Origin: Symbiodinium sp. CCMP2592
Taxonomy: Eukaryota > Sar > Dinophyceae > Suessiales > Symbiodiniaceae
Assembly: GCA_905221615.1 (NCBI GenBank)
Contig: CAJNDT010003557.1
Location: 607,001-671,000 of the forward strand
Direction of reading: 5' to 3'
DNA: 64,000 nucleotides
The notes beneath the pieces were generated by a model. It did not search any database and had not been told where the DNA came from. It was given only the letters and a program-made list of their open reading frames with translations. Below are positions 19,026 through 43,700 of this stretch, one piece after another. Both the position numbers and the translations under genes were made by a program. Positions within the stretch are counted from its first letter, which is position 1. Each line of letters begins with the position of its first letter.

Positions 19026-19504
19026 GCTCGGCAGCGACCGCAGAGAAGCCTCTTGGCGTTCCCACCGCGGCTCGCGTACAGCTTGCCACTGGCAAGATGA
19101 CACCACGAAGAGGCCCATTCTGGGAGAGTGCACTGCACCTCCCGTTGAAGGCGAGGGTTCTCCTCGACCTCGGGCTCGGCGACGAACTCGTCTTCTCGGT
19201 CAGTGTCACTGGCGTCTTCCGTGTCGCTGAGCTCCTGTTGTTGCGAGACCTTTAGGGCTTCCACCCCCACTGGGGGTGCTGAGCCCGAGAAGGTTTTCCT
19301 GTGAGAAGCCTTGCTAAGGTTCTCTCGCCTGAGGTTAAACTGACTGCTAGGCAGCGCGAACTGTTTTCCGAGGGGCTGGTCGGGAAGAAAGTCGCCATCT
19401 CTGATGGCGACAAGAACCTCTGCCTCGTGCCAGGCCGACCGCACTGCAAGACTTGCTGGAGCAGCAAGTCTTTCGATGCAGAGTGAAAAAGAGTGCGAGA
19501 GCAT
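18935..19504 (-). pseudogene. Minus-strand frame with acidic linker, uncertain
   Basis: A 189-codon frame contains AWHEAEVLVAIRDGDFLPDQP (reminiscent of the region after the recombinase domain in these elements). Next come an acidic Ser/Asp/Glu linker (SDTEDASDTDREDEFVAEPE) and SGKLYASRGGNAKRLLCGRC. It overlaps the recombinase-like plus-strand segment at 18960-19020, so the two cannot both be ancestral coding strands over that overlap. Either a small inversion joined two element pieces here or one resemblance is accidental. Confidence 0.3.
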
Positions 19505-19545
19505 CAGCCTGTCCTAGTAGGGTCTTGCAGTCTGCACAGTGTTCG

Positions 19546-19662
<117 letters not shown>

Positions 19663-19690
19663 TTTTCACCTTTATCTGCCCTGCAGGACG

Positions 19691-20004
19691 ATGGCGAACC
19701 TCGTCGACAGTGTCGCGGAATTTTCGAGCAAAGCTCAACAACTCCTAGGAGACGCCGAGTCGGCGAAGCTCCGGCAGACATCCGCACCTTCGGAACGTTA
19801 GCGTACAGCGTCGCTGACCAACCAGACCGCATCAGCGATGCGAAGTTTGAAGAACTTCTTAGGAAGGTCTTCTCGGCGGCAGAGCCGTCTCTGGGCACAA
19901 AGGCCGCAGCGCGGCGCCTGGCCTTCGAAAGCCTGACCTTCAGCATCCAGGATCTGAAGATGAGAGTTGAGGGTGACAGCGTCACCCCCAAGAGCTTGCC
20001 CATG
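19691..20004 (+). pseudogene. Host retroelement gag, N-terminal part, cut by the TIR transposon
   Basis: ATG 19691 opens MANLVDSVAEFSSKAQQLL. A single-base shift near 19770 moves to the frame of RTFGTLAYSVADQPD, ISDAKFEELLRKVF and LAFESLTFSIQDLKM, up to LPM at 20004. The same reading frame resumes at 33547 (HEREERRAAQ), on the far side of the 13,540-bp transposon plus a 2-bp duplication, and the total inserted length (13,542) is divisible by three. The pattern of an N-terminal helical domain, a long middle domain and a C-terminal zinc-finger cluster is that of a dinoflagellate gag-like protein which precedes a methyltransferase-RT polyprotein. Confidence 0.75.
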
Positions 20005-20055
20005 CCTCTAAGATCAGGTTAGGCTATTTTGGGACATATATCCTATTTGGCAAAA
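20005..20055 (+). repeat. Left terminal inverted repeat (51 bp)
   Basis: It is identical to the reverse complement of 33494-33544. It begins CCTCTAAGATCAGGTTAGGC and ends in TTTGGCAAAA, after which the two ends diverge. It is preceded by the TG duplication at 20003-20004. Confidence 0.95.
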
Positions 20056-20165
20056 ATAACCTATATAGGTTATTTATATAAATAAACTATAGGTTATTCT
20101 TCCGGTTATTCTATAGGTTATTTTATAGGTTATATCTGAAATAGCCTATTTCCTACTGTAGAATA
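20056..20165. repeat. Left AT-rich subterminal repeats
   Basis: TAGGTTATTT, ATAACCTATA and AAATAGCCTA type motifs repeat in both orientations directly inside the left TIR. A similar set (AATAGTCTATTT, TATAACCTG) lies inside the right TIR. Clustered subterminal motifs usually serve as transposase binding sites, which I infer here. Confidence 0.6.
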
Positions 20166-20169
20166 TAGC

Positions 20170-20765
20170 TTAGAAATTGCTTACTGTGTTTGTCAAACTA
20201 GCATCCAGTTTGATAGATTTTTGCATAGAACATTGAAATTGACATATTTTTCTAAGTGGCAGACCTTTGCTTGTGGTTGAAGGAATGTTTTTAGGGAACT
20301 CAGAAACAACTGCAAGAGAGGCCTCGACCGCTTGTTTGCGAAAGAATACATGGAAGCTTTGGAGCAAATTCCAGCCGTCTTTGAACAATCCAAGATCCCA
20401 CAGCAGGCAGGAAACGACAACAGCATCGATCTTTTTAAGCTCTTCCTGGGAAGATTTCTCCAGTGTCCTGTGTTGTGCAACCGGAACGATGGTTGGCAGC
20501 AAGAAGTGTTTGCGATGCGAATTATATAGACCGTACGGGTTCGGTGCTTCAGGATCCATCTCTTTCGCAGTGATTTTCTCAGAAAAGCACAGCGACATCG
20601 ACTGTTCACCAGCTTCGACCGGGTTTGCTGTACACAGTCGTCGGGATCCCACCAATCATCGCACGAGTCATAGTCAGAGGCATCACTGGTTGTTTTGGGC
20701 TCTGGACTCTTCCAATCCTCCCAACAATCTTCGCTCTCGTAGATCCACCCATAGTACCACGGCAT
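20170..20765 (-). CDS. Small minus-strand cargo ORF, frameshifted or spliced
   Basis: The minus frame from 20765 starts MPWYYGWIYESEDCWEDW, followed by an acidic, Trp-rich segment ending near DDWWDPDD. A second minus frame overlaps it and continues as PEAPNPYGLYNSHRKHFLLP, then ELKKIDAVVVSCLLWDLGLF and a stop at 20170. The best single reading switches frame between about 20640 and 20600, by a short intron or a one-base lesion. I recognise no family. It is the only cargo ORF pointing towards the left TIR. Confidence 0.35.
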
Positions 20766-20797
20766 GGTGCAGGGACTCCGGATCGGCCCAGTTTTGC

Positions 20798-20852
20798 AAC
20801 CCTAAACCCTACAAACCCTAAACCCCTAAACCCTAAACCTTATAAACCCTAA
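20798..20852. repeat. Telomere-type CCCTAAA repeats (interstitial)
   Basis: Eight to nine near-consecutive CCCTAAA units (with ACAAACCCTA and CTTATAAACC variants) lie between the minus-strand ORF and the first plus-strand cargo gene. CCCTAAA is the complement of the TTTAGGG telomere type. It is a short interstitial copy inside the transposon. Confidence 0.85.
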
Positions 20853-20991
20853 GTTTAGAGGGGTAGCATAGAGCAGGCTTGAGGTTTTGCTTTGCACTTC
20901 CACAGTCGAGATGTTGGAAAGAAAAACGCATGCAAAGGTTTCTAGGTAGCAGAAAAAGAAAAAAAGCAGCATTTTGCTGCTGAACTCTGCC

Positions 20992-22104
20992 ATGGCTGCC
21001 ATGGATACCCGTCTGAAGTGCGACCCCCTGATAGCTGTGGGGGACCTGCAGAGGTGCTTCAGGGAGCAAGTCCGACGGGCTGACCTTTGGCACACGGTGC
21101 AATGTCCCCGTGGGGCTCAATGGTCATGGAAGACAGCCATCAATGTCGAATGGCTTTACCAGAGCCGCTACTTGCTACAGGACCTGCTTGGGGTCGCTCC
21201 GAATGCCGTTCTCCCGAGTGTCAAACTCCGAGCTGCAGTTCGCCGATGCCTCGAGACCCCGGAGCTGAGGATGTCCAAACACGGCATGGACGTGGAAACT
21301 TACACGGATGGCATCGACCAGAGGGTCCGTGTCCTGATGTCGCAACTTCGGGACTTGAAGAAGGACGATAAGTATTTCCCGGCAATGAGGAAAGCCAGCT
21401 TGGAGGAAAGGGAAGGTCTGGACAAGTTGCTGACCTTCTTGCAGGACCCTGCAAGTGCGAAAACGGCTCAGAAAGCCGAGGCAAGCCAACCTTCGACTTC
21501 CTCAGCTTCTGCCTCCACGGCTTTGGTACTGTGGCAGCCGCCAAAGGACCAGGCAGCAGGCAGCTCGGTCTTCAGTAGAATCCTCGCGAAAAAGGGCAGC
21601 GAGGAATCTGAGTTTCGAGCAGACCCGCCTAAAGCTTCGCCGAGCAAAAGGCTTCGAGCTTCGCAGCCTTTTCGTGTGCGAGCTCTTTGTTCTCCTCGGA
21701 AGAACCAGGCTTCGCCTCGGAAGCAGGCTTCGCCTCGGGAGGCGGCCTTGTCCGACGTGCTGGACAGTGAGGCGGCGAAGGCCGTAGATGAAGCTTTGGT
21801 GTCTTCGCCTACGAAGAAGAGGGCCTTCAAGAAACCAGCTGCTGCTTTCAAGAAACCAGCTGCTGCTACAAAGAAAAAGACCAAAAAAGCGCCGAAAACG
21901 GAGGAGGCTGCCACCGAGGAGGGAGAGAAAAAGAAGTTTAAAACTACCTTCAAGCACAGAAAAACGAGCCAGGCCTACCACCGGGAAAAGTGCCTTCAAG
22001 AGCGACTGGGCTTGTCTCCGCAGTCAGCGAAAAAGAAAGCCAGAGAGAAGATGCGGGAAGTGGCCGCCCTCATCGATTCTGGCAAGCTCGTCGAGACTGA
22101 CTGA
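20992..22104 (+). CDS. Basic Lys/Ala/Pro-rich nucleic-acid-binding-like protein (371 aa)
   Basis: The start chosen is ATG 20992 (MAAMDTRLKC), 41 bp after a CTAGGTAGCA motif at 20942. Residues 1-140 form a compact mixed region with many Arg and Trp (DLWHTVQCPRGAQWSWKTAI, VRVLMSQLRDLKKDDKYFP). The middle is disordered, Ser/Ala/Pro-rich with SPRKQASPRE-type repeats. Next come FKKPAAAFKKPAAATKKK repeats like histone H1 tails. A C-terminal helix follows (AYHREKCLQERLGLSPQSAKKKAREKM), a pattern I recall from several uncharacterised dinoflagellate proteins. I infer DNA or RNA binding, perhaps in the nucleus. The role for the transposon is unknown and no catalytic motif is seen. It is an intact single-exon frame. 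Confidence 0.7.
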   Translation: MAAMDTRLKCDPLIAVGDLQRCFREQVRRADLWHTVQCPRGAQWSWKTAINVEWLYQSRYLLQDLLGVAPNAVLPSVKLRAAVRRCLETPELRMSKHGMDVETYTDGIDQRVRVLMSQLRDLKKDDKYFPAMRKASLEEREGLDKLLTFLQDPASAKTAQKAEASQPSTSSASASTALVLWQPPKDQAAGSSVFSRILAKKGSEESEFRADPPKASPSKRLRASQPFRVRALCSPRKNQASPRKQASPREAALSDVLDSEAAKAVDEALVSSPTKKRAFKKPAAAFKKPAAATKKKTKKAPKTEEAATEEGEKKKFKTTFKHRKTSQAYHREKCLQERLGLSPQSAKKKAREKMREVAALIDSGKLVETD

Positions 22105-22449
22105 AACCTCTGGGTGGCGAGGAAAAAAATAGAAGTCTTTTTGGCGGGCAGGATTAATTGTTCGGGTTTTCCCAAAAGCTCAGGGTTCTTAGTTTTTCTT
22201 CACACTTGTGGTTTGGCAATAGATGTTCTGATATAGCATGAAACACCAAAAAAGTAGCACAGCGACGTGTAATGGAGATAGTTTTTACTTGAAATCTAGC
22301 GAAGGCACACAAGAAGCACCTCTATAAGTCACATATAATACACCTGATTGGCAGGCTCGGTTGCTACATATAGTCCCTAGGATTTAGGAGGCAGCTTTAA
22401 AAAAGGCGCCGAATCCGATTATGCAGCAGGCCCCAGCGGTTCCAAAATG

Positions 22450-22955
22450 TAGGATCTCTATGTAGCACAAAATCTAAGTACCAGCTTTTTGTCGACGTCC
22501 CAATCCATGTCGGTAGCAAAAACTTAAGTAACAGCTCTATCTAGGTCAGAATCCATTTATGTAGCCATATAAATCTAAGTAGCAGCTTTATCTAGCCCAC
22601 CAACCATCTAGGAAGCCAAAATCCAAGTAACAGCTTTATCTAGGTCGTAATCCATTTAGGTAGCAAAATTCTAAGTAGCAGCTTTTTCTAGGTCGCAATG
22701 CTTTTGCTAGGTCGCAATCCATCTAGGTAGCAAAAATCTAAGTAGCAGTTTTTTCTAGGTCGCAATGCTTGTGCTAGGTCGCAATCCATCTAGGTAGCAT
22801 AAATCTAAGTAGCAGCTTTTTCTAGGTCGCAATGCTTTTGCTAGGTCGCAATCCATCTAGGTAGCAAAAATCTAAGTAACAGCTTTTATTCTAGGTCGCA
22901 ATCCATCTCGAAATTTAACTTACATCTTTTAGGTCGCAATCCATTTAGGCAGCAC
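22450..22955. repeat. CTARGTMRCA motif array 1
   Basis: About 25 copies of a decamer with variants CTAGGTAGCA, CTAAGTAGCA, CTAGGTCGCA and CTAAGTAACA lie 15-19 bp apart. They are joined by AT-rich spacers (AAAAAT, GCTTTTT, ATCCAT). Groups of four decamers form a higher-order unit of about 65-70 bp repeated at least three times. All lie in the same orientation, on the strand of the cargo genes. Confidence 0.85.
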
Positions 22956-23353
22956 AAAGGCGCTAGGAAGCAAGCCAGGTTTTCCCCTAACCTGAAGCCC
23001 TTCTGCAGCCCAGAGCCCGAAGAACTTTTCGGCCGTCGCTCGCTCCGATGGCTCGCAGGAGGAGAACCCAGAGAGGAGAGAGGCACAGCAGCCACGACAG
23101 AGACCTCACAAAACTGAAGCAGGGCAAACACAGCACTCGGTAGAAAGAGCACACTGCAGACACTAGCACACAGGGACCCCTGATTTAGGGTTTAAGGTTG
23201 AAGGTTCTAGGTTTCTTCTCACAGAAGCACCACACACACAGTAGTCTCCACTCAGCGGTTCTCCTTCCCCCGACAGGCCAAACACGTGGCCGCTGTGTAG
23301 GACCAGCACACAGGCACACTTGCAGCCACTTTCCAACAGACGGACAAGCAGAG

Positions 23354-23500
23354 GCACACACACACACAGACACACTGAGACACACACGGAAACACCGACA
23401 GAAACACAGACACAGACACACGGACAACTGCAGACACAAACACACACACACACACACACACACACTTACTTGCTTAGTTACACACACACACACACTAACT
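23354..23500. repeat. (CA)n-rich microsatellite
   Basis: CACACACAGACACA-type sequence runs for about 150 bp with a purer CA core at about 23438-23465, followed by ACACACACAC again at 23480-23495. Confidence 0.9.
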
Positions 23501-23561
23501 AACTAGGCCAAAGTTCTAAGTAGCATGCTTCTCTAGGTAGCATCTCACGAGAGCCATAGCC

Positions 23562-24596
23562 ATGGCCAACCTGCCGCCAGACCGCACGGTCTGGCTCGGC
23601 GGCCTTCCCTCCTGGCTGTCGTCGGAGGAGCTGTACCACTGGTGCTGCAGCACTACGTGGCCGGTGTATGCGGAGGTGGCTCCGAGTGGCCACTCGCTGA
23701 CATTTGGCTATGTCATCTACAGCTCGCAGGAGGAAGCCGAAGAAGCCGTGACAGCTTTGCCTGCAGGTGTGGCTGGCTACCGGGTCAGCAAACGACTCTG
23801 GCAGGGCAAAGGCCAGGGCAAAGCGGCAGCAGCACCGAAAGCTGCAGCTCCGAAAGCTGCAGCAGCACCAGCAGCAGCAGAGGAGGAGGCTGCTGCTGTT
23901 CCCAAAGCAGCAGCAAAGGCGAAAGCTGCAGCAGCACCAGCAGCAGCTGCAGAGGAGGCTGCTGCTCCGAAAGCAGCTGCAGAGGCCAAAGCTGCAGCAG
24001 CACCAGCAGCAGCACCTGCAGAGGAGGCGGCTGCTCCGAAAGCTGCAGCACCAGCAGCACCAGCAGCAGAGGAGGCTGCTGTTCCGAAAGCTGCAGCACC
24101 AGCAGCACCAGCAGAGGAGGCTGCTGTTCCAGCTGCACCAGCAGCAGCACCTCGGACTCCAACAAGTCCTGCTGAGGAGCCAGCAGCAGCAAGGCCAAGG
24201 GCAAGCCCGGCAGCAAGCCCAGCGGCAAGCCCAAGCCCAGCAGCAAGCCCAAAGGCAGCAGCAAAGGCAGCAGCAAGCCCAAAGGCAGCAGCAAGCCCAA
24301 AGGCAGCAGCAAGCCCAAAGGCAGCAGCAAGCCCAAAGGCAGCAGCAAGCCCAGCGGCCAGTCCAGCAGCAAGCCCAGCGGCCAGTGCAGCAGCAGAGCC
24401 AGCAGCAAGCTCAGCACCAGCAGCAGCAGCAGCAGGGGAGCATCCGTGGCAGGAGGTCTACGAGCAGAGGCCATGCCGGGATCCTCACCTACGGAGCCCA
24501 CGACCTCCACCTCGCCCTCGAGGCTCCGTGCAGCAGCAGCTGGCGAATGCCACTGCTGCTAGCAAGTCGCTGGCGGCCACTTGGCAAGAAATATAG
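23562..24596 (+). CDS. RRM protein with Ala/Pro/Lys-rich tail (344 aa)
   Basis: ATG 23562 follows two CTARGTMRCA motifs. Residues 6-75 fit one RNA recognition motif. RNP2-like TVWLGGLP is followed by helix SSEELYHWC, then RNP1-like LTFGYVIYSS, then helix SQEEAEEAVTALP. The aromatic positions of RNP1 are Phe and Tyr, so RNA binding is plausible. The rest (about residues 85-310) is low-complexity Ala/Pro/Glu/Lys built of AAAPAAAEE and ASPKAA repeats. The stop is at 24594-24596. It could bind transposon or host RNA; no partner is visible. The repetitive tail is also open in other frames, which are shadows. Confidence 0.75.
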   Translation: MANLPPDRTVWLGGLPSWLSSEELYHWCCSTTWPVYAEVAPSGHSLTFGYVIYSSQEEAEEAVTALPAGVAGYRVSKRLWQGKGQGKAAAAPKAAAPKAAAAPAAAEEEAAAVPKAAAKAKAAAAPAAAAEEAAAPKAAAEAKAAAAPAAAPAEEAAAPKAAAPAAPAAEEAAVPKAAAPAAPAEEAAVPAAPAAAPRTPTSPAEEPAAARPRASPAASPAASPSPAASPKAAAKAAASPKAAASPKAAASPKAAASPKAAASPAASPAASPAASAAAEPAASSAPAAAAAGEHPWQEVYEQRPCRDPHLRSPRPPPRPRGSVQQQLANATAASKSLAATWQEI

Positions 24597-24629
24597 TTCT
24601 AAGAGAGCCTCTCGGTAACAAGGCTCTAT

Positions 24630-24895
24630 AGGTAGCAAAAAGACTGGATAGGTAACATGCTTCTCTACGTAGCGGAATCCACTAGGTAGCACATTCTAAG
24701 TCACAGGACTCTAGGTAGCAAAAACCCTAGGTAGCAAATTCTAAGTAACAGGACTCTAGGTAGCAAAAACCCTAGGTAGCAAATTCTAAGTAACAGGACT
24801 CTAGGTAGCAAAAACCCTAGGTAGCAAATTCTAAGTAACAGGACTCTAGGCAGCAAAGTCTCTAGGTAGCAAATTCTACCTAGCAAACCTCCCTC
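24630..24895. repeat. 45-bp tandem repeat made of CTARGTMRCA motifs (array 2)
   Basis: Three essentially perfect 45-bp units (about 24711-24850), plus partial units, each hold three decamers: CTAGGTAGCA, CTAGGTAGCA and CTAAGTAACA. This fills the whole spacer between the RRM gene and the next cargo gene. One copy near 24880 is CTACCTAGCA, a diverged form. Confidence 0.9.
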
Positions 24896-24913
24896 TCAAC
24901 TGAGGTGAAAGGG

Positions 24914-25606
24914 ATGCTGCCCTGGCAGAGGAGGCAGCAGGCCAGGGCTGGCTCTTCGAAGGGGGCTGGCTCTTCGAAGGACCCTCCAAGGGCACCCTCG
25001 ACTACCTCGTCTGACGAGCAGGAGGAGTCGGAAAGCGAAGAGGATGACGAGGTCATCGAGCCGGAGGGGGCCAGAGCAGCCACTCTTCTGGCTGCTCGGA
25101 GGAGAGGTGAAGCTCTCCTCCGAGCAGAAGCGGAGCAAAAAAGAAGGCTCAAGGAGAAGGAAAGAGCCAAGGAGCAGAAAAGACTCCGCAGAGCAGAGGA
25201 GGAGGAGAGGCGAAAGCGCCGAAGAAAAGAGGAAAAGGAAAAGGAAAAGGAAAAAAAGGAAAAGAAGGAGAAACGCCACAAGAAGGGCAAAAGCAAGGAG
25301 AGGAAGGAGAAGAAAGAAAAGTCTGGAAAGAGAGGAGGAGATGATCCAGCTGGCCACGAGGAGAAAACTTCCGGGCCTGGGGATTCTAAGTCGCATATAC
25401 TTGTAGCTTTATCCTGCAGGAGCGAAAAGGAAGAAAGAAGGAAAGAAAGGATGGAGATTAGAGAAGAAAGCAGGCGGGGGACACAGAGCCACGAGACTGA
25501 GTGCACCGCCAAACTTCCCGCGCAGGCTGTCTTCCGAAAGTCTTCCAAGAAGAAAAAAGAAGGAAAAAAAGAAAAAGAAAAAGAAGGAGGCAGAGGCCAG
25601 CTCTAA
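24914..25606 (+). CDS. Highly charged Lys/Glu-rich coiled-coil protein (230 aa)
   Basis: ATG 24914 begins MLPWQRRQQ. GSSKGAGSSKDPP repeats follow, then an acidic patch (EQEESESEEDDEVIEPEGA). A long Arg/Lys/Glu helix (about residues 65-150, KEKERAKEQKRLRRAEEEE and KEKEKEKKEKKEK) should form a single alpha helix or coiled coil. Around 25385-25425 the frame runs through CTAAGTCGCA and ends in CTGCAGG, so a short intron may be read through here. The terminal KKKKEGKKEKEKEGG is basic. No family was recognised. Composition suggests nuclear or RNP association only. Confidence 0.5.
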   Translation: MLPWQRRQQARAGSSKGAGSSKDPPRAPSTTSSDEQEESESEEDDEVIEPEGARAATLLAARRRGEALLRAEAEQKRRLKEKERAKEQKRLRRAEEEERRKRRRKEEKEKEKEKKEKKEKRHKKGKSKERKEKKEKSGKRGGDDPAGHEEKTSGPGDSKSHILVALSCRSEKEERRKERMEIREESRRGTQSHETECTAKLPAQAVFRKSSKKKKEGKKEKEKEGGRGQL

Positions 25607-25624
25607 GTTGCAGTGTACAGCATT

Positions 25625-25925
25625 TAAATAAGTAGCAGGTGTAATGCAATCTAAGTCACGTGTCTTCTAAGTAACAAATTCCTAGGTAGCATCAAAACTA
25701 GGTAGCAAAAACTCTACCTAGCACAAAAAAACTAGGTAACAAAAAAATCTAAGTAGCAGAAAAATTTAAGTAGCAAAAACTCTAGGTAGCAGAACAAAAC
25801 TAGGTATCAAAAAAAAAGCTCTAGGTAGCAGAAAAATAGTCTAGTCGCACGTACATTTAGGTAGCATCTCTAGGCAAAGCTAGGTAGCAACCCGAACCAA
25901 GAACAAAGCTCCCAGGTCGCATTCT
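25625..25925. repeat. CTARGTMRCA motif array 3
   Basis: About fourteen decamers (CTAGGTAGCA, CTAAGTCACG, CTAGGTAACA, TTAAGTAGCA, CTAGGTATCA) are separated by A-rich spacers, starting 20 bp after the stop of the Lys/Glu-rich gene. Confidence 0.8.
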
Positions 25926-26045
25926 GAGGGGCTCTCGGATCTTCTTACCTCTGCCTCCGCTGTGGTGCCAAAACGGGCGGCCGAGCAGAAGGGTTTTCCA
26001 GGGTTGCGGGTTTTGGGGGGCTTGGGCGGTTGCTCCGGTCAGGGC

Positions 26046-26250
26046 TTCTGTCGAAGTTTCTGGATTTAGGGTTTGGGGTAACGTGTCTAGGGGTTTAGGG
26101 GCTTAGGGTTTGGGGTTCAGGGGTTTAGGGGTTCCAGGGTTTAGGGTTTGGGGTTCGGGTTCGGTGGTTAAGTTAGGGTTTCGGGCCTTAGGGTTTGGGG
26201 TTTAAAGTTCAAGGTGTCTAGAGGTTCAGGGGCTTAGGGTTTGGGGTTGA
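26046..26250. repeat. Degenerate TTTAGGG telomere-like block (G strand)
   Basis: TTTAGGGTTTGGGGTT, GGGGTTTAGGGG and similar degenerate units run for about 200 bp, all with the G-rich strand on top. They face the C-rich block at 27240 in opposite orientation. Confidence 0.8.
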
Positions 26251-26800
26251 GGGGTAGACATGCAGGCACCCACACGGACACAGCGTTTTTTTGTATTGGA
26301 TACGTATATATTGTTTTGAGGTTCATAATTATTCCTTTCCGTCTTCAATATGTTCTTTTCACAATACACATGAACTGTGAAGTATAGTTTTGCTACACTC
26401 TTTTCAAACCAACACATTATTCTATGTGAAGATTTTTCAGATACTTGTGATTTTTTGTGTTTTGTTTTATATTGTAGTTTTACTAAGGTCCAGTTGCAAC
26501 CATTATGTTAATGTTATTTTTCAATGCATTAACATGTTTCAGTTTATTCATATACATTTTTAAGAAGACCGGTATAGGTTTTTACAAAAAGGTATGTAAT
26601 TCTTTAAAGTTTGGATATGCATTTTTGAAAGATTTTGTTAGATTTGTTTTTAAAATGTTGCTGGATTCTTTTCAAATTTTGGTAGATTTTTTAAAAAATT
26701 TGGTATATTTTTAAAAAAATTTGGTAGATTTTTTTAAAAATTTTTACATTTTTTTAAAATTTTTTATATTTTTTTTAAATTTTTATAGATTTTCAGCAAA

Positions 26801-26868
26801 ATGGCGATCCAGTTTGAGTCCAGTTTGAGTCCAGTTTGAGTCCAGTTTCATACAAACTGGATCGCCAT
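26801..26868. repeat. Inverted repeat with tandem loop units
   Basis: Fifteen-base perfect arms (ATGGCGATCCAGTTT and its complement at 26854-26868) enclose a loop containing three tandem GAGTCCAGTTT units. It is able to form a long hairpin in DNA or RNA. Confidence 0.85.
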
Positions 26869-27239
26869 GGTTGAGTTTCATATGAAACTAAGAACAATAT
26901 GGAAACTTTAGATGTATTTAAAGCTATAAATCAACTTATCAAGCCCATTTTGCTTAAAAGCCCTGGTCCCCTAAAAAAGGCGCTTTTACAAAACATAAAC
27001 AATACATCGAATATACATAGGTTATGGAAACTTTATGTATGTATACATGTCTATATATATAAATACATAAATGCAGATATGTCTATGTATCTATACATAG
27101 CTAGAACACATTGTAACATACACACTATGTATATACAGACATATATATATATGTCTGTATGTGTATGTATATATACACAAGTGTCTGTGTGGGTGCTGGT
27201 ATGTTTACATGTAACCCAAACCCCCAGAAAGACCAGAAG

Positions 27240-27690
27240 CTGAACCCTAAACCCTAAACCGTGCCCCTAAACCCCTGAACTTAGCCCTAAACCCTTAAAC
27301 CCCCCTAACCCTATAAGCCCCTAAACCCTAACCCCCAAACCTAAACCCAAAACCCAAAGCCCTGGAGCCCCAAAGCCCAAAACCCCTATAAACCCCCTTC
27401 TCCCCCGCAGGCCAACACCCACAGAACCCCAACACCTATATAAAATGCTAAAGAGCTTTGACCCACATAAATCCCAAAGCCACAATAAACACTCTGCCCC
27501 GGAACCCGAAGCCCCCTGAAACCACCGACCTTCAACCCCAAAATCCCCCCAAGCTTACACCATCAAGTATGTCTCCCAAAGAGCTACCAATACAACCCCA
27601 AACCCCCAGAAAGCACGAACCCCTAAACCCCTGGACCTGCAAGCTTAAGCCCACAAAGCCAGACTCCTTAACCCACCCTCGCAAACCCGC
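27240..27690. repeat. Degenerate CCCTAAA telomere-like block (C strand)
   Basis: Units such as AACCCTAAACCC, CCCCTAAACCC and CCCCAAACC continue for about 450 bp and become increasingly degenerate and C/A-rich to the right. The orientation is opposite to the 26046-26250 block. Confidence 0.75.
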
Positions 27691-27739
27691 ACCTAGCTGA
27701 CCCGGGTACCTTTTAGAAGTTTGCTACGTGAAACTATTT

Positions 27740-28440
27740 AGTCTTATGTTACAAACATGCAAGAAATCTAAGTAGCAGATGTTGCTAAGTCACAAATCTA
27801 CGTACAACGAATTTTAGGTACAAAGGATCCAGAAGTAACCCACCCCAAGTATCAACCAAAACTATGTAGCAAGCTAAACGGAAGTTTCAGTACATCTAAG
27901 TCACATCTAGCAACTTGAAACCGAATCTAAGTCTCATAACAAGGCTAAGTAACGAGCAGAAAATAAAGTTCTATCTAGCAAATTGCAGTAGAACTAAGTC
28001 ACAACAAGACGACACTTATCTCACAGCGAAAATCTAGTATCTAAGTCACATCTTGGAACTTCGAACCGAATCTATGTCACATATCAAAACTAGGTAGCAG
28101 AAAGAATAAGCAGCTTCCTCTAGCATATAGCAGCACATAACTATGTCACAACTAGGACACGAGGCAATCTAAGTCACAGAGAAAATCTAGGTAGCAAGGA
28201 AATTTTCTAAGTTACCAAACAAAGCTTCGTAACAAACTTCTATGTTTCGAGATTTCCTTTTCCAGGTTGCACTGTGTAGTGTGCTTCCTAATAAAAATAA
28301 GGCAATCTAAGTCACAGAGAAAATCTAGGTAGCAAGGAAATTTGCTAAGTTACCAAACAAAGCTTCGTAACAAAATTCTATGCTTCGAGCTTTCCTTTTC
28401 CAGGTTGCACTTTGTAGTGTGCTTGCTATAAAATAAAGTA
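27740..28440. repeat. CTARGTMRCA motif array 4 with 138-bp tandem duplication
   Basis: Twenty or more decamers occur here, in this array mostly CTAAGTCACA, CTAAGTAGCA, CTATGTCACA and CTAGGTAGCA. The last part is a tandem duplication: 28162-28287 is repeated at 28300-28424 with a few substitutions. Each unit carries CTAAGTCACA, CTAGGTAGCA, CTAAGTTACC and a closing TTCCTTTTCCAGGTTGCAC. The array ends 120 bp before the next start codon. Confidence 0.8.
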
Positions 28441-28543
28441 ACAGACAGAAGAGACCTTTAAGCTCTGACACATGGCAGGGACCCTGCCCATCCGAACATG
28501 CGATGCAGCTTTTGGGTGCTCAACACAGCAGCGAGCTGTAGCA

Positions 28544-28563
28544 CCGTAGCCGTGGCCTCAATG
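28544..28563 (+). promoter_or_regulatory. Possible spliced-leader relic before a start codon
   Basis: CCGTAGCC followed by GTGGCCTCAATG resembles the dinoflagellate spliced leader (CCGTAGCC, an AT-rich core, GGCTCAAG) with the core shortened, and sits immediately against the ATG. If real, this gene entered the element through a trans-spliced mRNA. The match is short and could be chance. Confidence 0.3.
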
Positions 28564-29919
28564 GGGGTCATGAAGAAGCCTGCTGCAAAGAAGGCAGCCA
28601 CTCTGCCGGAAGAGGTGAAGGACGCTTTGGCAGTGCTGCCAGGTCTGGAGCAAGAAGACGACCCGGCCGAGAAGCACGAGGAGGAGAAGGCGGACCAAGC
28701 AAAGGAGCACGAGGGGGAGGAGGCGGCAAAAGCAGTCCCAGAAGAGGCTGCAGAGGAGAAGGAGAACCTCGAGCCGGACGAGGAGGAGCCAAAGGCACCG
28801 TCCAAGCCCAAGGCCAAAGGAAAGGCCAAGGCAAAAGCAAAGGCCAAGGGAAAGGCCAAAGCCAAAGCCAAAACCAAGGCTAAGGCCAAAGCGAAGGCTG
28901 CCTCCACGGACGAGCAGGACAACAAGTCCGGGGGTGGCTCCGGGGGTGGCTCTGGGGGTGGAAAAACCTCCAAAAGCCTTGCCGAGAAGGCAAAGGGGTG
29001 GGCGGCCCAGTCCGCCACCGAGGACGAAGGCCGCGACCAAGTGAAGGCGAGAAAATATCGCAAGTTGTGTGACTCGGGTGCAATCCCGTCACACATACAA
29101 GAGGCGATAGAAAAATCGTCCAGCCGCTCCGGCAAGTCCAAGCTGATCAATGCCCTCTTCGTCAAGGATGGCAACGGCCAGCTCGTGATGAATGCCAAGG
29201 ACCCGGTCTTCAGCAGCACCAAGACGGCGAGCCACGAGAACTACGGCAAGGACGAGCGACTCGGAAAGCCTCGCCACGTGTTTCTGTGGGAGACGTACCA
29301 CGGAAACGAGGCCGCACTCCAGCAGGGCATCGACACGGGTGCCGTGGACTGCTGGACAGTCGGCGGGGTGGAGATGTGCTCCTACCGCACACTCAAGAGT
29401 GGCACCCAGAAGAAGGTCGCGGACAACCACAAGCTCAAGGGCGGCGAGCAAAAGCTGGACAAGGGCACCTTCGGCGACGTGAGTGCCGCCCTGAACGACC
29501 TTTCCTTCGACTTCGACGAGGCTGGCTCCCAGGCCATCTGCGATGTGGCCAGCTCTTCCGCCTCCGGCAGCAAGGCGGCCCAGAAGATGTTGGAGTTTGG
29601 AAAGCTCTCTGACAAGCAGCGGGCCGTGCTGGTGGAAGCGAAGGAAGCCGTGGACAAGCTTCACGGCACGGGCATGAAAATGGCCCAGAAGTGCAAGAGT
29701 GACGAGGATCGCTTGAACTTCAAGGCGGTTTTGCTCGAGCTTAAGGACTGGAGCCACAAGCAGGAGCATGCCCTCGCCTGGGATGAGCTGCCGTCCGGAG
29801 AAGCCATCTCTGAGCAGTCCTTCGCCGCCTTTGTCAAGGAGCAGGCCGCTGCGGTCACGACTTTGAACGAGAAGGTGGAGCAGTTCCGGGCTTTGTTGAA
29901 AACCCGCAAGGAGCTCTGA
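28561..29919 (+). CDS. Uncharacterised dinoflagellate-type cargo protein (453 aa)
   Basis: ATG 28561 (MGVMKKPAAKKAA) is chosen because the preceding bases 28544-28560 resemble a spliced-leader relic; the frame is open to 28498 upstream. Residues 1-60 contain an acidic linker. Residues 80-125 are KAKGKAKAKAK basic repeats, followed by a GGGSGGGSGGG spacer. From about 155 a folded region appears: ARKYRKLCDSGAIPSHIQEA, LINALFVKDGNGQLVMNAKDP, RHVFLWETYHGNEAALQQGI, MCSYRTLKSGTQKK. The C-terminal third is helical (SDKQRAVLVEAKEAVDKLHG, EKVEQFRALLKTRKEL). I recall similar folded segments in many unnamed dinoflagellate proteins. No catalytic motif or known domain can be assigned. It is an intact single frame. 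Confidence 0.75.
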   Translation: MGVMKKPAAKKAATLPEEVKDALAVLPGLEQEDDPAEKHEEEKADQAKEHEGEEAAKAVPEEAAEEKENLEPDEEEPKAPSKPKAKGKAKAKAKAKGKAKAKAKTKAKAKAKAASTDEQDNKSGGGSGGGSGGGKTSKSLAEKAKGWAAQSATEDEGRDQVKARKYRKLCDSGAIPSHIQEAIEKSSSRSGKSKLINALFVKDGNGQLVMNAKDPVFSSTKTASHENYGKDERLGKPRHVFLWETYHGNEAALQQGIDTGAVDCWTVGGVEMCSYRTLKSGTQKKVADNHKLKGGEQKLDKGTFGDVSAALNDLSFDFDEAGSQAICDVASSSASGSKAAQKMLEFGKLSDKQRAVLVEAKEAVDKLHGTGMKMAQKCKSDEDRLNFKAVLLELKDWSHKQEHALAWDELPSGEAISEQSFAAFVKEQAAAVTTLNEKVEQFRALLKTRKEL

Positions 29920-30864
29920 AAGAGCTCCTTTTCTTGGCCGTGTCGCAGACAGGGTGTTGCCTCTGTCTGTGTTTGTAGGTCCCTATAAAATTGAAAAGTT
30001 TTCTTCATCCCCCCCATGTAATTGAAAGGTTTTCTTCTCATGTGTAAGGATGCTATACATAGACGATGTAGGCTCTCACAGGGCTTCACAGACAGAGGCT
30101 TCTATCCTGCCTGCGGGCTTGTTCTAAGTAGCAAAGCCCCACCAGAGGGCCCGGTTCTAAGTAGCAAATCACCTGCGGCCGCCGGGAAGCAGAGCCCATA
30201 GACATCGGGTTTTCTGCATGGCCTTGTGCAGGTGTGCAGCTGCTGAGCGCTAGGGCCCCTCTCTGCCTCAGGCACCGAGAACAGTACCACGAAGGCGGCT
30301 TCCTCGCAAAAGCTCTCACGACTCGTGTCAGGACCAGCAGCATGCAGCCGGTGATGTGCAGAATCTTGCAAGTCTTCAGCCTAAACCCCTCTGGAGCCAC
30401 CTCCCAGTGAACTTTTCCTTTGCACAGCTTCTTTCTGGCCCTGCGGTAGAAAAAACCTAGGCAGGCTCACAACAGAAACATCCATTTGTGTATTCCTTTT
30501 TCTAATGCCCAATGGCCCTCAAATCTTGGGTGAAGATCCACATTTCGGTCTCTCTAATGGCCCCACAGATTCCCGGTGCACGGCTGCTACACAAGGTCTA
30601 TAGGAAAACCGAAGCACAACACCCGTGAAGATCTATTCCTCTTTCTAAGGGCCCCGTCCCCGCAATCACAGTTTTCTGAGTAACACAATGGTCTCTTTAA
30701 TGGCCCCACAGACGGCCGCTAGACAAGGTTTATAGGAAAACCGAAGCACCACACCCATGAAGATTTATTCCTCTTTCTAAGGGCCCCGTCCCTTCAATCA
30801 GAGTTCTCTATAAGTAGCAAAAAAGGGCCTTCTCTCTACGTAGCAATGACACCTCCCTGCAGCC
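29920..30864. other. Spacer with tandem duplication and sparse motifs
   Basis: There is no gene. CTAAGTAGCA copies lie at about 30124 and 30159, and ATAAGTAGCA and CTACGTAGCA just before the transposase ATG (30810-30846). A diverged tandem duplication of about 143-bp period (30547-30676 and 30690-30800) shares TCTAATGGCCCCACAG, TATAGGAAAACCGAAGCAC and TTCCTCTTTCTAAGGGCCCC. Confidence 0.6.
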
Positions 30865-33096
30865 ATGGACGGCGAAGCAGAAGCTGCTCCCAAAAGACGA
30901 CGAGTAGTGGTGGGTCAGAGACAGCGACTTGCCGCCGCCGAAGCTCAGCAGGACCAGCCGTCTGTTTCTGAAAGTTTTTTGGCCAAGGACCTGAAGGAAA
31001 GATGGTCTTGGGGCGATTTGTCTGTCCAGGCCATGCAGGCACTGGCTGCGAAGGCTGTCAAAGACTTCGAGAATTGTGGAGCAAAGGCCCCAACGGAGTT
31101 GCAAGCTCTGGCGAAGCTGGGTTCAGGCGGCATCCACCCTAACAACATGAGACGTGAGATCATGAAAATTACAGAAGTTGGTTGCAGATTGCCGCCTTTG
31201 CAGCGGACTGCTCTACAGTTCAAGCAGCCCTGGGGAAATCAGCCCCAGCTCATGATGCTGCCTCATGAGATGTTCTCCGCCTTGTACGAGAATTACCACG
31301 AAGCTTTCAAGCGGTACGTGGTGGCCGATGCGAATGTCTTGCAGGAGTTCTGGCGGCTACAGAAGAAGCACCCGCAGTTCAAAGACCACCCTGTGGTAAG
31401 CCAGGCTTCCTTTGAGCCTCGAAAGTTCGTGCCGCTTTCTTTACACGGCGATGGAACACCTGCAATAGGTGTCGGGAAGATATGGAGCCGAATGTTAACC
31501 ACCTGGAGCTGGTGTAGCCTGGTTGGTGGTCCTGCCTGGACCAAGGATTCGCAACTGCCCATTTATTTCCTCTTCGATGAAACAGATGACGGCACAGCAG
31601 CGACTACCTTCCTCAGCATGCTGGCCTGGAGCTTCAAGGTGCTGCAAGAAGGTCTTTGGCCCTTTGCAGACCACAAGGGCAACCTGCACCCGGGATTGCA
31701 TCATTATCTTTCTGGTTGGGGTCAAATCGGATAAAACTCATTCTCTTTCTAACAGAAGTAGAAACACGTCGCATAAGAGCTGAATGCCTTTTCTTTTCTT
31801 TATAAGTAAAAAGCCCAAGTCGAATGTGTAAAGGACGAAAGTTTCTATGTAGCAGCGAAACACTAGCGATAACCTCTTGTTTTTCTGTCTTATAAGCAAC
31901 AAAATGGAATCCTAATCTCTTTCATGAGTCACAGGCAAGATGTGCTATCCAAAGTCTACTCACACATAAGCAAAGCTTCGCTCTAAGTAGCAACAAACTT
32001 TAAGTAGCAACTTTTGGTGGCAGACAATGGACTGTTCTAAGTAACACTTTTCTGTCAGCTTTCACACTGTCAGAGGTACCCGCCCACGAGCGACCTGGGC
32101 CGTAAGGCAGGATCGCCCTTGGCGGGGGGGTGGAAAGGCGTCATCTGGGCATTGGTCGGCGATCTTGAGTATATGGTCTCAAGATTGAACATGCCGCATT
32201 TTGGCCAAAAGCACAACCCGTGCGGCCTTTGCAAATGCTCGGGCGACGAGACTTCCACCTCTTGGAGGAATTGCAGACCGACAGCGCCATGGCTCAGCAT
32301 GCAATGGTCTTTGGCAGAGTGGCGGTCTTTTCCGGACCGCCCGAAAAACCCGTTGTTCGACAGCGGTGTATGCTCTGCACTCAGTTGCCACATGGACTAC
32401 ATGCACACGAAGTATTTGGGGCTGGATCCTTTGGGATTCGGGAGTGTGCTGAGCTTGCTCGTCAACTTCGTGTTGACCGACACACCTCTCGCGAATTTGC
32501 GACGTGTGTGGGACCACCTGCTCAGCTCCTACAAAGCCCTGAAAATCGTGGAAAGGTTCAGGGGCATGAGAAAGCTCAGTCTTTTTCAGAGGAAGAAGCT
32601 CCCGCCGAAACTCAAGGGGAGAGCCATGCAGATCCAGGCCCTGGGGGAACCACTACTCCTCTGCTGGCAGCACTTCATGAACAAAGACCTCGAAATTCAC
32701 CTCAAGATCGAGAGCTACTTGAAGGTGAATCTGGCCCTCGAGAAGATCCTGCATGCTACGAGGACCGAGATAGCCATGCCTCCAGACCATGCGGAGAAGT
32801 TCAAGAAACTGGCTTTCGGGCTCTGCCAGCTGCACCGACAGCTGCGGGAACACTTTGAAGGAAACTACTTCGCAGACCTCCCGAAGATGCACTTCTTCTT
32901 GCATGCCTGCCTTTTGGCAGATGTGCTGCATCCCCGGCTCACATGGTGCTTCAAAGGAGAGGATCTTCAGAAGATCTCTCGAACCTTGGCTGGCTCCTGC
33001 TGCCGGGCTGTGACCGGCCCTCGGGCTGCGGCAAAAATGTCGCAGCAGCTCCGCATAGCTTGGCACTTGCGGCTGGACAGGCTTTGTGCAGAGTGA
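30865..33096 (+). CDS. Probable transposase of the TIR element, two exons
   Basis: Exon 1 starts at ATG 30865 (MDGEAEAAPKRRR, basic). It contains LPHEMFSALYENYHEAF, then VPLSLHGDGTPAIGVGKIWSR, where the HGDG aspartate is a catalytic candidate, and ends near FADHKGNL. Exon 2 resumes with TSDLGRKAGSPLAGGWKGVI, GDLEYMVSRLNMPHF, a Cys cluster CGLCKCSGDE, and HMDYMHTKYLGLDPLGFGSV, followed by a helical C-terminal half ending at 33096. A GC-AG intron from 31686 to 32075 would join the frames, giving about 620 residues. The pattern matches a large family I recall from dinoflagellate genomes. Assignment as transposase is inferred from size, position beside the right TIR and the conserved Asp/His motifs; the superfamily is unknown. 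CTARGTMRCA copies lie inside the intron. Confidence 0.65.
31686..32075 (+). other. Putative GC-AG intron in the transposase gene
   Basis: Exon 1 frame continues only 16 codons beyond CT|GCACCC before a stop. Exon 2 frame is open immediately after CTGTCAGAG|G. GC donors are accepted in dinoflagellates. The 390-bp intron holds CTAAGTAGCA, TTAAGTAGCA and CTAAGTAACA motifs like the intergenic spacers. Confidence 0.5.
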
Positions 33097-33493
33097 GGAA
33101 AAAATGTCGTCGCGAGTCAATGCTGTGGGTTTAGGGCTCCTAGATTTTCAGGTCCAAGGTATAGGGTCTAGGGCAAAATTTTCACGAGTGTTTAATGGAC
33201 CGTGCTGATTTCCTCGGTATCAAACGAGTTAACATTTCAAGAAAATCTTTCAACACGGATCGGTTTTCAACACATTTCCCTATTCGCACACGTGTTTTTT
33301 CTAAGCAAGACTGACTTTGTTCTGTATGGATTTCCGATGATTTTTTGGTTTCCAACATATGCGAAAATATCCTATATTCTACCATATAACCTGTTTTTGC
33401 ATAGTCTATTTACCAAATAACCGAAAAAATAGACTATGAAACAAGAGCGAAATAGTCTATTTAAAATAGTATATTTCCAGGTAAAATAAACTA
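33097..33493. repeat. Right subterminal AT-rich region
   Basis: There is no gene. A short GGGTTTAGGGC fragment follows the transposase stop, then AT-rich DNA with repeated CTATTT, AATAGTCTATTT and ATATCCTATA elements. These mirror the left subterminal repeats. Confidence 0.6.
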
Positions 33494-33544
33494 TTTTGCC
33501 AAATAGGATATATGTCCCAAAATAGCCTAACCTGATCTTAGAGG
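33494..33544 (-). repeat. Right terminal inverted repeat (51 bp)
   Basis: It is the exact reverse complement of 20005-20055. It is followed by TG at 33545-33546, the duplicate of 20003-20004, and then by the resumed gag codons. Confidence 0.95.
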
Positions 33545-33546
33545 TG

Positions 33547-34485
33547 CACGAGCGCGAGGAGCGCCGGGCCGCGCAAGTCGCGCGCCTCAGGGGCGTCGTC
33601 ATCGAAGGCGACTACGACCCCGCGCACAGCCTTGTCGACAAAGCCGCGCTCATGCTGCAGGACGGCATCGTTCGTTACATCCCACCGTCGCAGTGCGTCA
33701 GTCGGGATGCCGAGATCGCCTCAGTGAGGCGTGACAAGGACTTCCTCTCCCTAGAGTCTGGGGAGATCACAGTCAAGAAAAAGGAGCACAGCGTGCACGT
33801 GGAGATCGGCAATGAGCTAAAGCTCACGCAGGCCCTGATGCGCAGGGGCCTCGCGCTCGACAGAGTCGGCGTGTTGGACTTTACGATCCACGAGAGACTC
33901 GTGCGACAGTTCTTCTCCGTCCTGAACCGGCCAGCGCCGCCGGGGATGGAACGCGGCAACAGTTGGCACGTAGTACGCGCCGACAAAGAACTGTGGACGC
34001 TGCTCGCGCGAGAGTGTCGCAAGGGTTGCAAACCGGACAAGGATGGTAAGAGACCACTAGATTCTCTAGTAGAGAACATGTGGTCCGATCCTATCGTGAC
34101 GCTGCACCTCCTCCCCTCGCCAGTGGCGGACCGGGGTCGCAAGGGCAAGGGCCGCGGCTTTACGCGCGGCGAGGAAGACCGCAGTCGTAGCACGACCGGC
34201 AAAGGCAAGAAAGGCGGCAAGAAAGGCCGCGGAAAGGGCAAGGGCAAGCGGCACGAGAGCGCAGAGCGCTCCAGGCCGCCGAGCATGCCAAAAGAGCTTC
34301 GCCACTTGAACAGCGTTTCTAAGTCGGGCAAGCGCCTGTGTTACGGTTTCAACCTGCAGTGCGGGTGCGACCTTGAGACCTCCGGCTCCCCCAAGCAGTG
34401 CGACAGGGGGTTGCACCAATGCATGAGCTGTGGCAGCTCCGAGCACGGAGCCGCTGAATGCCCCAAGGACGCGGGGGCCGCCTGA
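33547..34485 (+). CDS. Host retroelement gag, C-terminal part with Cys/His cluster
   Basis: The frame continues that of 19770-20004 after removal of the transposon. HEREERRAAQVARL leads into a folded region with HSLVDKAALMLQDGIVRYI, ELKLTQALMRRGLAL and WHVVRADKELWTLLAREC. A Lys/Arg/Gly-rich linker (GKGKKGGKKGRGKGKGK) follows. The C-terminal cluster begins CYGFNLQCGCDLETSG and ends with the knuckle CMSCGSSEHGAAEC. The cluster has CCCH-like spacing and should bind RNA. The stop is at 34483-34485, 9 nt after a GGGGG run, and overlaps the start of the methyltransferase frame by 28 nt in the -1 frame, the usual gag-pol arrangement. This part is intact, but the gene as a whole is split. Confidence 0.8.
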   Translation, partial: HEREERRAAQVARLRGVVIEGDYDPAHSLVDKAALMLQDGIVRYIPPSQCVSRDAEIASVRRDKDFLSLESGEITVKKKEHSVHVEIGNELKLTQALMRRGLALDRVGVLDFTIHERLVRQFFSVLNRPAPPGMERGNSWHVVRADKELWTLLARECRKGCKPDKDGKRPLDSLVENMWSDPIVTLHLLPSPVADRGRKGKGRGFTRGEEDRSRSTTGKGKKGGKKGRGKGKGKRHESAERSRPPSMPKELRHLNSVSKSGKRLCYGFNLQCGCDLETSGSPKQCDRGLHQCMSCGSSEHGAAECPKDAGAA

Positions 34486-40727: not shown

Positions 40728-43700
40728 CACGGATCCCAGGAACTCTTCCCGGGCACACGCCTCGGCTCTCGTCCGACGGAAGTATGGGATAACGAACAGA
40801 CTAAGCTCTCGCTGAAACATGTTTGGCAGGCACGTGCGCAGCTTCGCCGACATACCCTTGGGCCTCCACTTCGTGTTGCCTTTCATCTATGGCGTGCTCA
40901 TTGGCGACTTGTCAAAGCCCGCAAAGCGCTGCATTCGCAGTCCAACAAAGCGCGACGTGATAAATGGGACCAACAGCTTACCGAGGCGGAGGAGGCCTAT
41001 CACAAACATGACTCTCATTCTTTCTTTGCTATTGTGCGTAGACTTGCACCACGTCGTCCACGACAGCGCATTATGATGCGTAACAAGGATGGCACACTAT
41101 GCACACCACAGGAAGAAATTGGGCTGATTCATGACTACTGGCGCGGTGTATTTGATGTTCCGACACTCCCTAAATGCTCCGGCTATCTGTGGCATGGACT
41201 CAACATTACCACAAAGGAGGTGGAAATGGCCATCAGCAAATTATCAATGCGCAAAGCCTCGGCCCCAACCTCGGCTCCGCTCTGCAGCTGGCGTGCTTGT
41301 GCTCCTGACATTGCTCCTCTTATACAGGAATATTTGGCACAGCATTGGGGTGAAGGAGAACGTGCAGGTGACGAGGACATTGCTAGGTCCTGGCTAGTCT
41401 TTCTGGACAAGCCCAATAAACCCAGCAGCAAGCCCGAAAACCTTCGACCTATTGCTCTACAACCGGCTCCTGCCAAAATCATGGCCCTCCTTTTACGCTG
41501 GCGACTGCAACCGTATGTGGAGCAGCTGCTCCACCAATGTCCACAGTATGCATACACCAGAGGAAGAACCACTACGGATGCAATATCCCGTATTGCCCAA
41601 CACTGTGATTCTGTTCGAGCCAAAGTCAAACAGCAGACACTTTCACTCCATGAACGACGACAGGGCGCTGTACGAACCGTATGCACTGGTGGTGCTCAGC
41701 TGACTGTTGATTGCTCCAAAGCTTTTGACAGTTTACCTCGTTGCACTATGATGACCATGTTAACGTGGGCTGGTGTACCACCCGACTTGGCCACTGCTAT
41801 CATACAGGTCCATCAAGCTGGCACTTATCGTCATGGAAACGTGGACGACCCTGAATCCTGGATGGATATTGACAGTGCTCAAGGCGTGAGGCAAGGCTGT
41901 ATGCTTGCCCCATGTTTGTGGCTATTGTTCGTAACATACCTCTTCCATCACCTGGACACGACAATGGGAGGAGCTGATTCATGGACATGCCAGCACTCCA
42001 CTGCCTTCGCCGATGATCTTCACTTCAAGTGGGATCTTGACGATCCCAAAGCCCTGGATCGGATGAAGATGGAGGTCGCCACGGTACTCTCAGTGCTCAA
42101 GTCCTTTGGTCTTCAGATCAGCGCAGAAAAATCCACCATGTTGATCGAGATCCGCGGAACTGCTGCTGATGTTTGGTTGTCCAAGAACGTCTACAAAGAT
42201 GCTGAGAGCAACAAACACTTTCGTTATGACACGTTGGCCAAGCTCTCTATCCCGCTTGGTACCCAATTCAAGTATCTTGGGGTCATATTATCCTATCGCA
42301 ACTACGAGCTGGCCAGTGTCAAACATCGTGTACAACAGGCTGCCATACACCATTCCCGTCTTCGTCGCATTCTGCAAGGACGCGGGGGCATCAGCCGGCA
42401 TCAACGACTTCGACTCTGGCGCATCTGCATTCAGACAAGCCAGCTCTACGGACTCGAGGCCACAGGTGTCACGGAGGCAGGGATCAAATTACTACATGTT
42501 CAAATGCTTCGTCACCTAAGGGCCATTACAGGTCGACCCAGGCATCTTGATCGCAGCACTGATCAGGAATTGTTGGACAGTCTCAAAATGGCATCGGTCA
42601 GGCAGATGCTATCTCAACGACTTCAGTCGGCAAATACCCGTCTTTGCTCCAACACTGATCTGCCATGCTACGACAAAGACAATATACTGCGACGCATTCA
42701 GGCCTTACAAGCAGGTATTGACCAACCGATCTGCACACAGCGGGTCTCTACCGCCTTGACTACACCAGTACAGCAGACTCCGCATGATGATGTTACGCCG
42801 CAGGAGCAGAAAGTGCGACTCCAGGAACTACCCGCTGACACCAAGCAATTTCGATGTCAGGTATTCGGTCAGTCTTTTCCGTCTTTACATTTGGTGAAGA
42901 CCCATGAAGGAAAAGCCCACAAGATCTTGGCACCGAAACGGGAGCTGCCCCAGGATCGCTCCGTCTACTCCATCAACGGACTTCCGCAATGCCGTTTTTG
43001 TGGCTACAAATTCACGAAATGGAGTGGCCTCCAAAGACACATACAGCGGAACGGCTGCCCGATTCTTCGCCATGAAGATCCCGCCACCTTTGCCGCAACC
43101 GCGCCCGCGACTACAAACAAGGCTGAAGATCCTCTTCGTACTACACAACATGCATGGGTGGCCGACTCGACCATTGCCACCACCATGCCTTCAACTGGAG
43201 ATCAACCTTTGGTCCAAGATGCGCAACTACAGCAGGATGCCAGCAAGTACACGTGGACCAAGGTGCTTCACATGTGGCGTACAAAACATGACTTCACGAA
43301 TGTGTGTGTGTTCTGTGGTCAATGGGCAGTGGATGCCAGTGCTCTCAAACAGCATTATGCCAAGCAGCATCAGGCATTAACCAATCCGTGGATCGCAGCA
43401 TATCGGGCCGAGTGTAAGCAGCTAGCTAAAGTTGCCGTATCTAAGTGCCGCTTTTGTGGTACCACCACCACGGATGCTCGTCAGCATGCCCACAAATGCA
43501 TACATGTTTTTCAGGCCTACATGCTTACCAGCCACGTCTCAGGTCGAAATGGAGGACATGCCGGACTTCGATGCCGACAGCCAGATCCAGAGCCTCCTCG
43601 GGGGCCTCTCCTCAGTAGTGGACCTCAAACCACTTCTGAATCCAACGCCAACACCGGCGCGCAATCAGTCCCATCTGACCAACAAGCGTCCGAGGGCGGA

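Follow-up and report, generated by a model that had tools for sequence, protein, structure and literature searches.

A multi-copy DNA transposon family of Symbiodinium with a predicted RAG1-fold transposase

In a 64,000-nucleotide stretch of the Symbiodinium sp. CCMP2592 genome (the window; contig CAJNDT010003557.1, here C3557, positions 607001-671000), a gag-like frame of a retroelement is interrupted by 13,540 bp bounded by inverted repeats. What is this insertion, and which enzyme moved it there? We conclude, with a probability of about 0.86, that 20005-33544 of the window belongs to a DNA transposon family that has multiple copies and moved recently, with 51-bp inverted ends and a target duplication of nearly always 2 bp, and that its own intact gene at 30865-33096 putatively encodes a DDE transposase with the predicted fold of RAG1, the recombinase that assembles the antibody genes of vertebrates. 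The ends, the duplications at independent sites, the near-identical long copies, the short copies with the same ends and the intact transposase frames with their full residue set are all directly observed. The family is complete, recently moved and defined to the base in a dinoflagellate, a lineage whose giant genomes have poorly described DNA transposons, and its ends, short movers and intact transposases are naturally available for direct assay. The isolate is assigned to S. tridacnidorum in PMC8045281. We found no description of such an element in dinoflagellates in the literature searched, although Repbase and most subscription papers lay outside that search and an unnamed consensus may exist there.

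Ends, copies and target duplications

The insertion and its immediate surroundings comprise the following features.

19405..20004, + strand: gag-like frame of the host retroelement, 5′ part, interrupted by the element
20003..20004: target duplication, left copy (TG)
20005..20055, + strand: left terminal inverted repeat, 51 bp, 5′ start CCTCTAAGATC; 31 left-end places in the genome
33494..33544, − strand: right terminal inverted repeat, 51 bp, a perfect match to the left one
33545..33546: target duplication, right copy (TG)
33547..34485, + strand: gag-like frame of the host retroelement, 3′ part, interrupted by the element

An initial annotation had described a multigene terminal-inverted-repeat (TIR) transposon with base-exact ends inside a retroelement gene, and this description holds. 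The two repeats are perfect over all 51 bp, and no 12- or 14-mer of the repeat occurs elsewhere in the window. Removal of the element does restore the gag frame: when the flanks are joined with a single TG, one frame stays open through the gag-like junction. A codon table derived from the genes of the element, and not from gag, scores both flanks as coding, with 0.40 for 19705-20004 and 0.63 for 33547-34482. An endonuclease (PF03372, 2e-8) and a reverse transcriptase (PF00078, 1.6e-14) are encoded downstream of the element, so the host is a retroelement of the non-LTR (non-long-terminal-repeat) type. The label gag rests on position and on a CCHC-like stretch read by eye; a Pfam scan of the gag piece matched no family, and Rfam and tRNA scans of the window gave no match.

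The search with the terminus that the initial annotation had proposed found a multi-copy family. With a 96-base left-end query against the assembly (1,098,105,373 bases in 5,383 contigs) we obtained at least 69 matches, a lower bound because 40 of 70 candidates were scored. By our own grouping, 31 are left-end places, 9 match the 51-bp repeat alone and 29 are short hits to the subterminal repeats on the opposite strand. For 20 of the 31 left-end places we located both ends: the window copy and 19 further insertions, whose flanks differ on both sides. Thirteen of these are long copies, namely the window copy, 11 of 13,785-13,881 bp and C5370 of 15,364 bp; seven are short, four of 413-414 bp and three of 3,516-3,595 bp. 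The other places comprise three close to a contig start whose right ends were not sought (C3317, C4393 and C671), two in which a longer stretch was read and held no good right end (C376 and C4938), and six read only at the spot expected for a 13-kb element (C1147, C1782, C4979, C5101, C2469 and C814); the left ends of C1782 and C5101 are poor, with 11 and 14 mismatches in 51. A 30-mer of the end had no match in viral contigs.

A 2-bp duplication flanks 19 of the 20 insertions (TG, AA and TT four times each, TA three times, and TC, AG, GT and CA once each); the exception is C5062, where three bases match (AAT) and a 2-bp match is absent. Chance would give such a match at about 1 in 20, so the duplication is 2 bp long and free in sequence, with a lean to A and T. 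The TG reported initially is thus correct for the window copy and is not general, being one of eight dinucleotides. The initial annotation had also counted duplications other than TG, and ends without this interior, as evidence against its reading. Both occur, in 15 of the 19 2-bp duplications and in 7 of the 20 copies, respectively, and neither overturns the reading, because varied duplications of one length mark independent insertions and because families of this type usually include short, non-autonomous members. Inverted repeats at 20 independent insertions and a duplication of fixed length at all but one of them are marks of a cut-and-paste TIR element, which this probably is.

Could the copies instead be segmental duplications of one locus, flanked by repeats that match by chance? 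One left flank is common to C5370 and C3317 and one flank to C3160 and C2576, and sequence duplication thus accounts for some of the places. The differing flanks on both sides of the 20 insertions and the great excess of 2-bp matches nevertheless contradict this explanation, to which we give practically no credence. C5370 (C5370:146730-162093), with perfect ends and a GT duplication, is ~1.5 kb longer than the other long copies.

The transposon copies themselves are close to one another. Full-length identity among the window copy, C2480 and C1665 is 99.0-99.6%. Across the last 2,701 bp, the 11 other long copies compared differ by 0-4 bases mutually and by 25-28 from the window copy, which is therefore the odd one. 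Its differences from C2480 are clustered, many of them at 28.6-30.7 kb (28600-30720) and 32.2-32.8 kb (32190-32900), and coding parts diverge more than noncoding parts between the copies compared. Exchange between subfamilies is a possible source of such clustering.

The predicted transposase and its relatives

The candidate transposase gene lies near the right end.

30865..31685, + strand: transposase exon 1; first catalytic Asp codon at 31450
31686..32075, + strand: transposase intron, GC-AG; splice supported by P0001, with GC and AG borders in all 12 fully read copies
32076..33096, + strand: transposase exon 2; Asp 32161, C(2)C 32221/32230, D(2)H 32395/32404, H(3)H 32890/32902, Glu 32959

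The GC-AG intron is in keeping with the GC- and GA-AG introns described as common in Symbiodiniaceae in PMC11453091. The exons encode 613 residues; in all 12 long copies with a complete read of this region the frame is stop-free and has every motif residue, and the read of the thirteenth, C5370, covers its last 1,671 bp. Among the transposase copies, synonymous change exceeds non-synonymous change per site, and the catalytic and zinc-binding residues are kept in distant homologs. These properties argue against the long copies being mere passengers, with a transposase that is dead or unrelated to movement and some other element acting on their ends. Such an arrangement would fit the short copies with the same ends, which show mobilisation in trans, and the activity of the enzyme is predicted only, but the intact frames lead us to regard it as quite improbable. 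More plausibly, the element's own transposase would excise it at its ends and paste it into target cuts staggered by 2 bp; folded as modelled, the protein would bind the inverted repeats and the subterminal repeats.

To which group does this protein belong? The initial annotation could not place it in a named superfamily and suggested family searches followed by fold prediction. The sequence searches gave no family: Pfam matched neither exon among the window frames (E ≤ 1), and a search of the PDB with the transposase sequence found no match. Searches of 14 transposase homologs against Pfam (E ≤ 10) returned TerS_C in two and Trp_leader2 in one, and a PDB profile search returned ADAMTS chains only (best 0.1); all of these we take as chance. 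A BFVD fold search had no match at E ≤ 0.001, searches of viral contigs with P0001, A2, A3 and P0003 confirmed no relative, and none of 27 pattern matches to A2 in a genome-contig collection was confirmed. With these failures, placement rests on motif and fold. The best PDB fold matches of the predicted structure include RAG1, BbRAGL and Transib, and the Transib/RAG-type RNase H fold with its ZnC2/ZnH2 arrangement is present in the prediction. PMC12730594 defines a CMCT group (CACTA, Mirage, Chapaev, Transib, Plavaka, ESTA and Lanisha) by C(2)C and H(3-4)H motifs between the second D and the last E and by duplications of 2-5 bp. The transposase has this motif and the element duplicates 2 bp. 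By fold and motif, then, the predicted protein can be placed in the CMCT/RAG1 group, contrary to the first assessment. The termini depart from the group: the same text gives 5′-CA..TG-3′ ends "in most cases", with PlavakaA as another departure, and the element has 5′-CC..GG-3′.

Within this group, a true Transib/RAG-like element would have a RAG1-type transposase, ends resembling the CAC heptamer and 5-bp duplications. In addition to the fold matches, the D-D/D-C/C-H/H-E spacing of 107/20/223/19 is close to the 108/19/210/20 of pig RAG1 (PMC13056857). However, transposase identity to RAG1, BbRAGL and Transib is ~11%, there is no sequence-level hit, and the element combines CCTC..GAGG ends (starting CCTCTAAGATC) with 2 bp at 19 of 20 insertions, as against the 5-bp duplications and heptamer-like CAC ends of Transib and RAG-like elements given in PMC7204232. 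Its partner genes also differ from those of RAG1, BbRAGL and Transib, with no Kelch (RAG2-like) match in the Pfam-scanned frames of the element. Moreover, CACTA, Chapaev and Mirage transposases are missing from the listed PDB matches, and the fold search is therefore unable to tell Transib from CMC. Membership of the Transib/RAG-like elements proper thus appears improbable.

A more serious contender, though one we still think unlikely, is that the element forms a divergent branch of CACTA/EnSpm, Plavaka or ESTA within CMCT and not a lineage of its own. CACTA elements are long and multigene, with accessory genes, subterminal repeats and deleted derivatives, and in all of these respects, as well as in the CMCT motif set, the element resembles them. 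Plavaka and ESTA, the fungal members, share C(2)C and H(3-4)H and may carry extra genes, and 2-bp duplications are possible for PlavakaA, PlavakaB and ESTA (PMC12730594). The lineage descriptions in the same paper give CAC..GTG ends with 3 bp for EnSpm, TGT..ACA for PlavakaA, CATCA..TGATG for PlavakaB and a duplicated TA for ESTA, together with a TET/JBP passenger and fungal hosts for Plavaka/ESTA, whereas the element has CCTC..GAGG ends and duplicates eight different dinucleotides; this comparison covers EnSpm, PlavakaA, PlavakaB and ESTA. No CACTA transposase family of Pfam was matched by the window frames or by the 14 homologs, none of which gave a PF02992-like hit.

Outside the group, P elements use GTP and make 8-bp duplications, in contrast to the 2 bp of the element. 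The 7-8 bp duplications given for KDZ elements (Zisupton, Dileera, Kyakuja) in PMC12730594 are likewise different from those found here. If the placement is correct, an alveolate RAG1-fold transposase with 2-bp duplications and CCTC ends would widen the group that gave rise to Transib and RAG1 and would help to test how cut stagger and terminal bases evolve.

Putative accessory genes, short relatives and the ends probably needed in cis

What else does the transposon carry, and how much of it is needed for movement? Two further genes and two blocks of subterminal repeats bear on these questions.

20056..20180, + strand: left subterminal repeats (GGTTATT / CTATTT); the 414-bp copies retain roughly the element's first 175 bp
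20992..22104, + strand: gene 1 (ORF1), 370 aa; predicted to be helical in its N-terminal part and to have C-terminal helices, with no known domain
23562..24575, + strand: gene 2, exon a; weak RRM-like start and Ala-rich repeat region; donor at 24576 (GC) by the P0018 model
24905..25381, + strand: gene 2, exon b; charged KEK-rich stretch, end approximate
28479..29919, + strand: gene 2, exon c; conserved domain ending LNEKVEQFRALLKTRKEL
33425..33493, − strand: right subterminal repeats (CTATTT); the 414-bp copies retain the element's last 120 bp

Gene 1 is identical at 369 of 370 residues to the predicted protein P0023, whose contig equals in length C5062, the site of another copy; the frame of gene 1 is intact in all three copies read, and homologs extend down to ~30% identity. 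The RRM_1 match of gene 2 exon a (E 0.023, 15 bits) lies under the 20.7 cut-off. Two other contigs each have a single predicted gene (P0018 and P0019, which are annotators' gene models and not transcripts) that unites the frames at 23541, 24884 and 28462, and these frames are therefore probably exons of one gene; exon a matches P0018 at 83 of 84 residues and exon c at 299 of 313. The b-c structure is provisional, since the borders used here give a joined frame that is broken in exon c. The multigene character initially proposed for the element stands, with the six gene candidates probably making up three genes. Minus-strand frames at 20170-20801, considered as a fourth gene near the left end, were set aside for their low codon scores (best 0.215, for one frame of 20500-20801); for the element's own genes such scores are circular, as the same genes trained the table. 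Genes 1 and 2 may supply accessory factors, the former a positively charged helical protein and the latter an RRM-like protein that could bind RNA.

The short copies suggest how little of the element may suffice. Those of 414 bp retain 171-175 bp on the left, with 92.6-94.3% identity, and 120 bp on the right, with 97.5-98.3%, and the 3.5-kb copies retain 267-283 bp and 327 bp, the rest of their interior being unlike the element except for weak repeat matches. Within 300 bp of an end lie 12 of the 15 copies of CTATTT and all six of GGTTATT. Since the 414-bp copies, with only these end stretches, also have 2-bp duplications, the cis sites probably lie in those stretches; the needs for movement are probably confined to ~175 bp on the left and ~120 bp on the right, and the short copies were probably moved in trans by the transposase of long copies. 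With the required ends narrowed to ~300 bp, one can conceive of a small vector with which to transform coral symbionts. In the three 3.5-kb copies (L078, L081 and L082), the longest frame found is 141 aa.

A strand-biased decamer in the interior

A decamer, CTARGTNNCA, is concentrated in the spacers and introns of the element.

22474..22900, + strand: sense-strand CTARGTNNCA array in the gene 1-gene 2 spacer
24682-24871, 25603-25889 and 27768-28334, + strand: further CTARGTNNCA arrays

It occurs 58 times on the + strand, never on the − strand and never in exons, whereas 0.43 would be expected on the + strand of noncoding sequence (at most 3 in any of 300 simulations). About 45 of the decamers sit in a few arrays, and part of the excess is tandem spread. 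The corresponding strand counts in two further full copies are 57 and 0; the decamer is found once elsewhere in the window and five times, both strands counted, in 96,435 bp of fetched flanks. Each 3.5-kb copy has one on the + strand and two on the − strand, and all four 414-bp copies have none, so the decamer is not needed in cis for movement. We also rejected it as a transposase site, as the inverted repeat scores nothing with the decamer weight matrix. Five of six exon starts have a decamer within 70 nt (P 0.019), a relation too weak to use since the threshold was set afterwards.

The single orientation, the restriction to spacers and introns and the absence from the smallest movers point to a role at the RNA level rather than in movement, and our guess is that the decamer serves in making or processing the element's RNA. 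A bolder and rather doubtful extension is that the family represents a separate RAG1-fold superfamily native to dinoflagellates, whose autonomous form always carries the three-gene module and controls itself through RNA; the RRM-like gene 2 protein would read the ~58 decamers in introns and spacers, a signal lost from derivatives moved in trans.

Telomere-like repeats (AACCCTA / TTTAGGG) are also present in the element, at 20798-20852, 26065-26253 and 27243-27363, in opposite orientations around an AT-rich stretch. Outside it, a 698-aa frame at 47307-49400 of the window gives a weak reverse-transcriptase match (6.4e-5, under the Pfam cut-off) and possibly belongs to another retroelement. Unusually for a retroelement, the reverse-transcriptase frame of the host, at 40728-45269, terminates in a ubiquitin C-terminal hydrolase domain (PF00443, 2.5e-10).

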